Positions 34,351 to 37,390 of a stretch of DNA of 64,000 nucleotides are shown one piece after another (position 1 is the stretch's first letter; each line of letters starts with the position of its first letter). The translations under genes and the position numbers were made by a program. The notes beneath the pieces are model-generated. The model searched no databases. It was not told where the DNA came from and saw only the letters and a list, made by a program, of their open reading frames with translations. Origin of the DNA: Mycolicibacterium sarraceniae (GTDB lineage: Bacteria; Actinomycetota; Actinomycetes; Mycobacteriales; Mycobacteriaceae); assembly GCF_010731875.1 (NCBI RefSeq), contig NZ_AP022595.1, positions 4,278,001 through 4,342,000 of the forward strand. Direction: 5' to 3'.

Positions 34351-35040
34351 TTAGGTCTCGATGATGCGCGTCAGGTAGGGCGTCATACCCGCGGTGCGGA
34401 CTGGGCTGACGGTCACGTGACCGGCCGCCGACGACGCCTCGAGCATCTGCCCGTTGCCCAGATAGATGGTGACGTGCTGGGTGCCGTTCGGCCCGTAGAA
34501 GATGAGATCGCCGCGTTTGGCCTGCGACGGCGGGATGTGACGGCCGGCGTTGTACTGGTCGCCGGAGTACTTGGGTAGCTGCACGCCAACGCCTGCGAAG
34601 GCATAGCGGACAAATCCCGAGCAGTCGTAGCCGACCTTGCCCGCGTCCTCTTCCACGCCGGCACTGGGTCCGTTGATCGCGCCGCCGCCCCACGAGTAGG
34701 GCACGCCCTGCTGCGAGGCACCACGGGCGATCACGTATTCGATGGCCTGCGGTCCCCTGACCCGGCTGCCGGGCAGCGCCGACGGAGAGCCGCCGATGCC
34801 GAGGCCGGCCAGGAACTTGCGGCCCAGGTCCATCGTCGCCTGCGCGGACTGCTGGGCAACCTGCAGTGAGGCGTTGGCCACCGCAAGCGGGTCACCGGGG
34901 GCGCCCGCGCTCAGCAGCTTGGGCAGCGTCGGATCCCACTCGCCCGGATCGGCGTTCGCCGGACCGGCAAGACCGAATGCCAGGGTGAGCGCCGTCAGGA
35001 CCGTTCCCACGAAGACCCGTCGAGAACTAGTGCGAAACAT
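34351..35040 (-). CDS. ripB: NlpC/P60 peptidoglycan endopeptidase RipB
   Basis: 229 residues. Sec signal peptide ending in ANA (residues 28-30), then a short linker and a C-terminal NlpC/P60 domain with catalytic Cys140 (GYDCSGF) and His189 (TQHVTIYLG). It cleaves the D-Glu to meso-DAP bond of stem peptides in the cell wall. It lacks the coiled-coil inhibitory domain of RipA, which lies 26 bases upstream and shares the WDPTLP...GDP linker pattern, so the two arose by duplication. Confidence 0.95.
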   Translation of the reverse strand: MFRTSSRRVFVGTVLTALTLAFGLAGPANADPGEWDPTLPKLLSAGAPGDPLAVANASLQVAQQSAQATMDLGRKFLAGLGIGGSPSALPGSRVRGPQAIEYVIARGASQQGVPYSWGGGAINGPSAGVEEDAGKVGYDCSGFVRYAFAGVGVQLPKYSGDQYNAGRHIPPSQAKRGDLIFYGPNGTQHVTIYLGNGQMLEASSAAGHVTVSPVRTAGMTPYLTRIIET

Positions 35041-35066: not shown

Positions 35067-36524
35067 TCAGTATTCGATGTAGCGGATGACGAACGGTGTC
35101 ATGCCGCTGGTACGCACCGGCGAGATCTTGACGTTGGAGCCGGTGTAGGGAGCCTCGAGCATCTGGCCCTGGCCCAGGTAGAGGGTCACGTGCTGGCTGC
35201 CACCGGGGCCGTAGAAGATCACGTCGCCACGGCGCATCTGGGACGACGGGATCTTGCGGCCCATGTTGTACTGCGAACCCGAGTAGTGCGGCAGCCTGAT
35301 GCCGACGCCGGCGAACGCGTAGAGGATGAGCCCCGAGCAGTCGAACCCGACTGTGCCGGCGCCGCTGTCGATACCGTTGCTGGGACCGGTGGCGGTCCCG
35401 CCACCCCAGGAGTACGGCACGCCCATCTGTGAGCTGGCACGTTTGATGACGTACTCGGAGGCCTGCGCGCCGTACACGTAGGGAATCGCGCCGTTGGTGA
35501 TTCCGGTGTCGTCGGGCTTCAGGATGCCCAGCTTCTGCAGGAAGCTCTTGCCCATCTGCTTGGTCGCGTTCAGCGACGAGCCCGAGATCTGCAGCACCGC
35601 GTTGATGATCTGGATCGGGTCACCGGAGACGAAGGCGCTGGGCACCATCGGCAGCGTCGTATCCCACTCCGACGCACTGCCGAACGGCGGAACCTTGCCC
35701 GCGTCGGGCGCCTTGGCCGAACCCGGCGCGGCCGGATCCCAGCGATCCCCCGGGGTCGCCGGGCCGGTCGCGACCGACTGCGGCACGGCGGCAGGCGAAT
35801 TCGCCGGCGCCGACCACTGACGGGCAGCCTCGAGCTTGTCCTGGGCCGCCTTACGTTCGGCGGCCAGCTGGTTGATCTGCGCCTGCTGATCACCGAACGT
35901 CTTCTGCGCCTGGGTCAATGCCGAGACCGCAGTCTGCTGACTGGCTTCGGCGTCGGCGACGGCCTGGTCGGCCCTCTGCTTGGCCAGCCGGGCCGCGGAC
36001 TCCTTGTTGAGCTGTTCGGTGCGAGCACGCTGCAGATCGGTCATCACCTGTTCGGAGCTCAGCGCCACCGCTTGGTTGGCCGATGCGGTGGAGATGATGT
36101 CCTCGGGAGTCGACGCCATCAACAGGGATGCGGACGGTCCGTTCATATAGGCCGCCACTGCGAACTCGTCGAATCGCTTCTGGGCGGCGGCAATGGCGCC
36201 GTTGGCGTCTTTGACCGCCGCCGCGCTGATATCGACCTGTTGCTGGGCTTCTGCCGCGGCATCCCGGGCGGTCTGGACGTCGACGATCGCCTTGTTGACG
36301 CTTTCCTGCTCGGCCTGCACCTTGGCCCCGATGTCCTGTAGCCGCTGGTTGGCGTCGGCGACGTCGGCGATCAGGCCGGCGATCGTGTTGGGGCCGGCGC
36401 CCGGCTCAGCGTGCGCCACTCCCGGCATCGTCAGTGTCATGGCAACACTGAGCGCCAGCGGTCCCATCGGCCTGGCGATGCGGATGGCCGGCCGGACAAA
36501 AGAGCCGCGATGTGAACGCCTCAT
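35067..36524 (-). CDS. ripA: NlpC/P60 endopeptidase RipA (septum splitting)
   Basis: 485 residues. Signal peptide ends at VAHA (residue 39). A long coiled coil (about 45-235, Ala/Gln-rich) leads to a Pro-rich linker and a C-terminal NlpC/P60 domain with Cys396 (FDCSGL) and His445 (SQHVTLYLG). RipA separates daughter cells by peptidoglycan hydrolysis, works with resuscitation-promoting factors, and is kept in check by its N-terminal region. Upstream lies a phased array of GTCACA-like half-sites that fits control by MtrA. Start ATG at 36524 with AGGAG about 11 bases before. Confidence 0.96.
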   Translation of the reverse strand: MRRSHRGSFVRPAIRIARPMGPLALSVAMTLTMPGVAHAEPGAGPNTIAGLIADVADANQRLQDIGAKVQAEQESVNKAIVDVQTARDAAAEAQQQVDISAAAVKDANGAIAAAQKRFDEFAVAAYMNGPSASLLMASTPEDIISTASANQAVALSSEQVMTDLQRARTEQLNKESAARLAKQRADQAVADAEASQQTAVSALTQAQKTFGDQQAQINQLAAERKAAQDKLEAARQWSAPANSPAAVPQSVATGPATPGDRWDPAAPGSAKAPDAGKVPPFGSASEWDTTLPMVPSAFVSGDPIQIINAVLQISGSSLNATKQMGKSFLQKLGILKPDDTGITNGAIPYVYGAQASEYVIKRASSQMGVPYSWGGGTATGPSNGIDSGAGTVGFDCSGLILYAFAGVGIRLPHYSGSQYNMGRKIPSSQMRRGDVIFYGPGGSQHVTLYLGQGQMLEAPYTGSNVKISPVRTSGMTPFVIRYIEY

Positions 36525-36714
36525 TCGACCCTGATCTCCTCTGCTCCACGTGCAGTCACGCCAGTAACAGATGTCACATCAGTCACATCAATAACAATGG
36601 CGACAACTGCACCGTACGTCACATTTGTCGCAGAGGAAACTTCCGGCAAGAATTACATCTTTGTCATTTACGGGATGTTGCCGAAAAGTAATCTTATTGA
36701 TTTGCCAGATAAGG
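36525..36714. other. A/T-rich ripA upstream region
   Basis: 190 bases between ripA and the upstream membrane-protein gene, clearly richer in A/T than both. It contains the phased repeat array at 36555-36635 and then a T-rich part to 36714 that carries the end of the upstream gene's transcript. No small gene is supported. Confidence 0.6.
36555..36635 (+). promoter_or_regulatory. 9-bp-phased array of GTCACA-like half-sites (MtrA-like)
   Basis: Read on the plus strand, units beginning at 36555, 36564, 36573, 36582, 36618 and 36627 all start GTCAC, GTAAC or GTCGC, on a strict 9-base register. The pair at 36573 and 36582 is identical (GTCACATCA twice). Units between 36591 and 36617 keep the register but are degenerate. 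MtrA of mycobacteria binds direct repeats of GTCACA-like 9-mers, and ripA is a reported MtrA target, so this is probably a multi-site MtrA operator. Confidence 0.65.
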
Positions 36715-37278
36715 CTATTTTGGCTGTTCAGACGGCATTTCGGTATTTTGCGAGCGGCGAGCCCGAAGCTGCAGAACTCGGGTCAAAACAGCCGCCGCAG
36801 CCACCCCGATCAGGAGTGCGAACGTTAATCCAACCCAGGGAAAGTCCGGCGTTTCCAACTGGTCGACAAAAGCCTGTGTGCCGACCACCGGATTCGGCGC
36901 CGTCTTGGCCACGTCCTGGCCCGCCTCGAGGGTGACGCGGTCATAGGTGGTGCTGTAGGTGCCGGCCCAACCTGGGCTGAGCACCAACACCGTCGAACCG
37001 GGGTTGGCGCTACCGATCTCGGTGGCGATATCGCGAAGGGGGGTGTCGATCGGCGGACTGCTCTGCATGACGACGACCTTGAGGTCGACGCCACGGGCTG
37101 CAGCCGCGGCCACCACCTTCTGCAGACCGGCCGCATCGGCGGCCGGCGCGGCGACACCATCGGAGGCCACATCGGCCTTGACCGCCGCCAGGCACTGCTC
37201 GACCGGCGTCGACGGCGCCAGGCCCACACTGCTACACACCTCCACCGGAATGAAGGTCGGCGCGGGCAGAATCGTCAC
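36715..37278 (-). CDS. membrane protein Rv1476-like
   Basis: 187 residues. An extracytoplasmic-looking domain (PAPTFIPVEVCSSVGL; STVLVLSPGWAGTYSTTYDR) is followed by one C-terminal helix (VGLTFALLIGVAAAAVLTRV) and a short basic tail. Length matches the 186-residue Rv1476, which also lies between ripA and acnA. The GTG at 37278 is chosen to match that length; GAGGTA lies 12 bases upstream. The open frame to 37374 gives an extra N-terminus without family support. Function unknown; it may act with the RipA/RipB hydrolases. Confidence 0.75.
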   Translation of the reverse strand: MTILPAPTFIPVEVCSSVGLAPSTPVEQCLAAVKADVASDGVAAPAADAAGLQKVVAAAAARGVDLKVVVMQSSPPIDTPLRDIATEIGSANPGSTVLVLSPGWAGTYSTTYDRVTLEAGQDVAKTAPNPVVGTQAFVDQLETPDFPWVGLTFALLIGVAAAAVLTRVLQLRARRSQNTEMPSEQPK

Positions 37279-37390
37279 GATCGGAAACGGTACCTCGCGC
37301 CCGAACTCCGGGGTGGCACCACGCGCCGAGGAAGACAAGACTGAGACCCAGGACCGTTGCCCGTGCGCGGACACCCAGCCGCCCGCTTAG

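Follow-up and report, generated by a model that had tools for sequence, protein, structure and literature searches.

The 64,000-nt stretch of Mycolicibacterium sarraceniae DNA analyzed here (contig NZ_AP022595.1, positions 4,278,001 to 4,342,000; hereafter the window) carries, upstream of the gene for the peptidoglycan endopeptidase RipA, a run of ten head-to-tail 9-bp steps at 36555..36644, which reads NNNN-GTKAC-like on the minus strand, the coding strand of ripA. The register of this array is conserved among the ripA promoters of relatives, and arrays of the same period recur before other division and envelope genes. On balance, we favor the reading that the array is an operator for a small winged-helix protein polymerizing head to tail, for which the Rv0500A orthologue of the host, working like BldC of Streptomyces, would be the likeliest reader. 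Septum cutting by RipA needs the right timing, and the published accounts that we found treat ripA transcription as a matter of MtrA. A first-pass annotation of this DNA likewise took the array as a sign of cooperative MtrA binding; the array is unsuited as evidence for this, and a likely misreading is thereby corrected.

From upstream to downstream, the ten units read GGAA-GTTTC, CTCT-GCGAC, AAAT-GTGAC, GTAC-GGTGC, AGTT-GTCGC, CATT-GTTAT, TGAT-GTGAC, TGAT-GTGAC, ATCT-GTTAC and TGGC-GTGAC on the coding strand, of which nine match GTnAC in 3 or 4 of its 4 bases and one (36609) in 2 of 4. The units listed by the first-pass annotation were all present, namely six successive ones at 36555, 36564, 36573, 36582, 36591 and 36600, two further in-phase ones at 36618 and 36627, and the identical neighbors GTCACATCA at 36573 and 36582. 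The register reaches one unit beyond the 81 bases it described (36636-36644; coding strand, GTTTC). When these 81 bases were compared with themselves, identity was 0.51, 0.49, 0.52 and 0.49 at lags 9, 18, 27 and 36, versus 0.11–0.31 at all remaining lags between 3 and 39. The best five-unit GTCACA score in the array was 26 out of 30, and the best place elsewhere in the window gave 19. When hexamers from the intergenic region were scored at periods 6–15, the top value of 26 was again obtained at period 9, followed by 21 at period 15. A count across the window gave a single run of six 9-bp GTnAC units (at least 3 of 4 bases each), located at the array; this run appears on both strands because GTnAC is palindromic. 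Chance, or a functionless relic of tandem duplication, is the least probable of the explanations considered here. The two identical neighboring units could stem from a recent duplication, but none of the 5000 copies generated from the 190-nt intergenic region with a first-order Markov model scored as high as 26 (largest, 22), and such an origin is contradicted by the conservation of the register over 47 dereplicated promoters with varied spacers, as follows.

The ripA loci comprised 52 from named genomes and 30 from 118 same-genus genomes, all 118 of which gave a match, one of the 30 being the window's own. Two loci with no upstream DNA (L045 and L048) and two distant matches (L051 and L052) lay outside the resulting set of 77 upstream regions. 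A conserved core, GTGACGTACGGTGC, located at 36609..36622 on the minus strand of the window, was found with at most 3 mismatches in 75 of these 77 regions, and was absent in L132, at a contig end, and in L009. L009 represents a second ripA-like copy from an assembled genome. After L041 (3 core mismatches and no other element) was dropped, dereplication at 85% identity gave 47 promoters including that of the window, of which 34 hold the core exactly; in one same-genus sample, it was found in 24 of 29 genomes. The expectation that the register would be kept in relatives was borne out by this alignment, in which register 0 held a mean of 4.77 in-phase units per promoter and each of the other eight 0.11–1.19. 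Register 0 was best or tied in 43 of the 47 promoters and strictly best in 34. Around the core, most of them line up without gaps as an 11-bp TnAC pair, a palindrome, and then the 9-bp units. In another genus (g9), the 14-mer core precedes RipA-like frames by eye (L071-L079); several of these loci also have an upstream TAATCAC...TTTGTAATTC block, and L077 shows five 9-bp steps in phase.

The stretch that had been called a degenerate gap (36600-36617) overlaps this core, the most conserved block of the region. It contains TACGGT (36611..36616, minus strand), a likely −10 element of the TANNNT type judging from sequence and conservation, and transcription of ripA may start near 36603-36605. With a −10 candidate inside the supposed gap, the array probably straddles the ripA promoter and its 5′ leader. 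In a further explanation, the 9-nt period represents three codons of a small upstream frame of x-Val-Thr repeats overlapping the ripA start. One frame is indeed open through the window array by eye and ends at the ripA ATG, and 29 of the 47 promoters keep the x-Val-Thr frame open over 0..75, against 0 and 1 for the other frames. Such openness is to be expected because GTKACNNNW units rarely make stops in this frame. The frame is closed in the remaining 18 promoters and so is not kept open across relatives, a 2-base insertion in L002 shifts its end, and some of the periodic units precede the probable transcription start. We thus regard a coding origin as very improbable.

The known link between ripA and MtrA, which the first-pass annotation invoked, holds: ripA is a published MtrA target, and MtrA binds PripA by electrophoretic mobility shift assay (EMSA) and chromatin immunoprecipitation (PMC6265350). 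The array shares with MtrA sites their GTnAC-like half-sites in direct repeat, a likeness that also counts against our favored reading. The two differ in period and number, as an MtrA site comprises two half-sites at 11 bp. MtrA sites are described as 9-nt repeats with 2 nt between, or repeats with four between (PMC6265350), as 7-bp repeats with a 4-bp spacer (PMC11215152), and, in C. glutamicum, as 8-bp repeats with a 3-bp linker whose length is important (PMC3353115). These spacings (9+2, 7+4 and 8+3) amount to an 11-bp period. The two direct 9-mers of the earlier description correspond to the published 9-nt units, which, being 2 nt apart, repeat every 11 bp. No 11-bp period was detected in the array, for which lag 9 was high and lag 11 at background; none of the spacings from 9 to 81 in steps of 9 is a multiple of 11.

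The same promoters contain a separate box with the period expected for MtrA. In the window, this direct repeat, GATTACttttcGGCAACA (36676..36693, minus strand), shows 0 mismatches to a pattern built from relatives, though the pattern was loosened to admit the window copy, whose second half, GGCAAC, has a mismatch to the TnAC pair; at ≤1 mismatch, it gave 7 matches in the 64 kb against 3.85 expected. A TnAC pair at 11 bp was exact in 37 of the 47 promoters and had at most 1 mismatch in 44, lying at −69 or −70 from the core in 43 of them and at −65 in one. When the range −120..−45 was scanned for exact pairs, 38 of the 47 promoters had one at 11 bp, while the other spacings from 7 to 15 gave at most 16 (spacing 15). 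This box (36676-36693), at its fixed position, is a better candidate site for MtrA than the array.

Binding of the array by MtrA, in a 9-bp register unusual for this protein, is accordingly an unlikely alternative. Besides the half-sites and the binding of MtrA to PripA, it can draw on the array genes, which resemble the MtrA regulon in having envelope and division roles, and on a differing description of MtrA sites in the dnaA promoter, where the 7-bp boxes read CACGCCG or CACGAGG (PMC2945938), since CACGCCA, within the unit at 36555, differs from the former by one base. When an insertion displaced the reported MtrA sites of the ripAB promoter in M. smegmatis, promoter activity changed and septum number was restored in a mutant background (PMC12338722). 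Against it stand the 11-bp period in three sources, the separate box, and the distribution of arrays given below. The proposal of cooperative multi-dimer MtrA binding hence survives in part: cooperative binding of a multimer is reasonable because the phased array is real and conserved, but the array fits MtrA poorly in its period.

The 9-bp arrays are not confined to ripA. A strict pattern, GTKACNNNWGTKACNNNWGTKAC, occurred in 73 of 108 same-genus genomes at 177 places (reversed control, 6), and in 67 of 151 genomes and 21 of 31 genera of the family (reversed control, 8 by our own reading). A further unit at +27 was present in 33% of 46 distinct arrays, versus a mean of 6% across flanking offsets. 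The genes beside 30 array loci of the genus (one of these loci, L157, being a relative's ripA promoter) were inspected, and ten array-locus proteins, eight from the genus and two from the host genome, were scanned. NCBIfam named five of the ten, namely SepX/GlpR (L184), RipD (L180), UDP-galactopyranose mutase (L183), and a mannosyltransferase (L160 and L099) that we take to be PimE-type. Arrays thus precede sepX/glpR, ripD, pimE-type and glf-type genes. In the host genome, the strict pattern occurs twice, before ripA and in the divergent region before the mannosyltransferase gene. The latter locus (L099:3114; G000:C1:2667113) is a three-unit array between that gene and a divergent secreted-protein frame, and the same or a similar 23-mer is found in many relatives. 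A three-to-four-unit array also precedes, by ~95 nt, a secreted-protein frame for which NCBIfam gave no match (L098:2954; G000:C1:104453). Coding repeats of the GTTACCGCC type, at ~159201, 162525, 562211, 1654227 and 4388106 of G000:C1, are false matches for loose GTnAC array patterns; they presumably belong to PE_PGRS genes.

Rv0500A matches were obtained in all 151 genomes of the family (a single copy in 150, two matches in the other), so that the family offers no contrast, and the co-occurrence of protein and array was examined in a class sample of 118 genomes, 111 of them outside the family. Among these 111, 86 genomes had a strong Rv0500A match, and 23 of these contained arrays with differing spacers, as did 0 of the 25 others (Fisher, 0.0017); by length, there were 28 such arrays in 373 Mb versus 0 in 97 Mb. 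Six genomes with weak matches only (E 8e-10 to 1e-6) were counted as without, of which the matches in G465 and G495 may be cut or incomplete, and identical-spacer matches, which resemble tandem repeats and occurred in 7 genomes with and 5 without Rv0500A, were set apart post hoc. Where MtrA scored above its cut-off, such arrays were present in 22 of the 82 genomes that have Rv0500A and in 0 of the 14 that lack it, which argues against MtrA as their reader; among genomes without MtrA, the figures were 1 of 4 and 0 of 11.

BldC operators in Streptomyces (smeA-sffA and whiI) consist of 9-bp head-to-tail direct repeats with four AT-rich bases followed by C. The array resembles them in its 9-bp step (one protomer per step for BldC), its head-to-tail arrangement, its four AT-rich bases followed by C, and in extending over a promoter, as BldC footprints do; it is longer, and its GTKAC core is far more regular. 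The direct repeats are present in the window and the 47 promoters, and the AT-rich bases followed by C appear in the phase table of the 47 promoters upstream of the core. In the window array itself, the four-base spacers hold 1 to 4 A/T, and one of the ten units has no C. The most BldC-like protein of the host is its Rv0500A orthologue, which adjoins a ProC-like frame. Its predicted model is a stand-alone MerR-like winged helix, for which the best fold matches are BldC-DNA complexes. Of the BldC contact and oligomer residues, E16, V23 and R30 are kept in an alignment read by eye and F21, W31 and K36 are replaced by M, L and E, which makes a mixed picture. In M. tuberculosis, Rv0500A is a repressor that binds the rv2390c promoter (PMC6375644).

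Several observations weigh against Rv0500A as the reader. The association with arrays rests on genomes sharing ancestry, and the smaller genomes in the group without Rv0500A also weaken the test. The sites of BldC itself are loose, AATT(N3-4)(C/G), and are said not to be predictable by sequence. The orthologue scored 26.4 bits against the cut-off of 77 for the BldC subfamily NF033787 and hence falls outside it. Its sequence matches in PDB are not significant alone, none of its Foldseek matches has an E as low as 0.001, and BldC and phage Pukovnik Xis are tied as matches by VIA. Three of the BldC residues named above differ in the orthologue. In the 22 most divergent promoters of an earlier 39-promoter set, units downstream of the core averaged 1.82 one base later versus 0.50 in register, and some promoters (e.g., L136, L139 and L144) have kept the 11-bp box and core but lost the upstream units and McdR palindrome to decay. 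Moreover, rv0500A::Tn mutants are viable (PMC6375644), so that control by Rv0500A would be non-essential. We consider it unlikely that another DNA-binding protein reads the array. The 9-bp operator class is strongly supported, while we infer its reader, and the host genome has seven HTH_17 places, three of them above cut-off, of which the Rv0500A orthologue alone was compared with PDB. Its match to BldC in that comparison and its presence in all 151 family genomes speak for the orthologue.

The palindrome at 36651..36668 is an exact copy of the published McdR motif AATnACAnnnnTGTnATT and the sole match in the 64 kb at ≤1 mismatch, with 0.01 expected. It differs from the array in being an inverted repeat, not a direct one. 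The motif and the binding of McdR (Rv1830) to the Rv0996 promoter by EMSA were reported in a paper whose main text mentions ripA twice, at least once as an MtrA target (PMC9040748). With at most 1 mismatch, the motif occurs at −46 from the core in 38 of the 47 promoters. This exact and position-conserved match suggests that McdR may bind the ripA promoter directly. An exact motif also lies 44 nt from the array start at L164, L172, L176 and L184, whose arrays precede the same type of protein, since the starts are alike by eye and L184, the one scanned, is SepX/GlpR. We take Rv0996 to be SepX/GlpR.

Under our favored reading, an Rv0500A polymer with one protomer per 9 bp would occupy roughly −45 to +60 relative to the core and occlude or reshape the ripA promoter. 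As the array covers the −10 region, start site and early leader, the simplest effect would be repression or gating of ripAB. Activation by phosphorylated MtrA would come from the separate 11-bp box, which lies ~55 to 70 bp ahead of the core, and modulation by McdR from the palindrome between this box and the array, so that three division-linked regulators would converge on one rigidly spaced promoter. We put forward, more tentatively, a wider proposal, in which a 9-bp operator code, (GTKACNNNW)n, in mycobacteria and their family would be read by Rv0500A polymers and couple genes of the envelope and of septum splitting (ripA, sepX/glpR, ripD, pimE and glf), and at ripA would be fused at fixed spacing with the MtrA box and McdR palindrome into a composite promoter integrating the three regulators. 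If a filament-forming regulator linked to the pH and chloride response does act on the ripA promoter as well, the connection of environment to cell separation can be put to a direct test, and candidates for the regulon in any mycobacterium could be collected by a plain pattern search. A 2022 paper reportedly ties Rv0500A to division in its title. No link of ripA to Rv0500A, McdR binding or a 9-bp array was found in the literature covered, which does not prove absence; the 2022 paper may already name ripA or a motif. In PMC6375644, ripA has 0 occurrences.

As for the locus, the call of ripA (35067..36524, minus strand) by the first-pass annotation agrees with NCBIfam NF033741 (769 bits; cut-off, 625) and the NlpC/P60 family PF00877. 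Downstream in the same direction lies ripB (34351..35040, minus strand; NF033742, 360 bits; cut-off, 335). The upstream neighbor encodes an Rv1476-type membrane protein (36715..37374, minus strand; PF20381, 201 bits), and the 190-nt intergenic region separating it from ripA has a GC content of 46%, versus 66% for the window.
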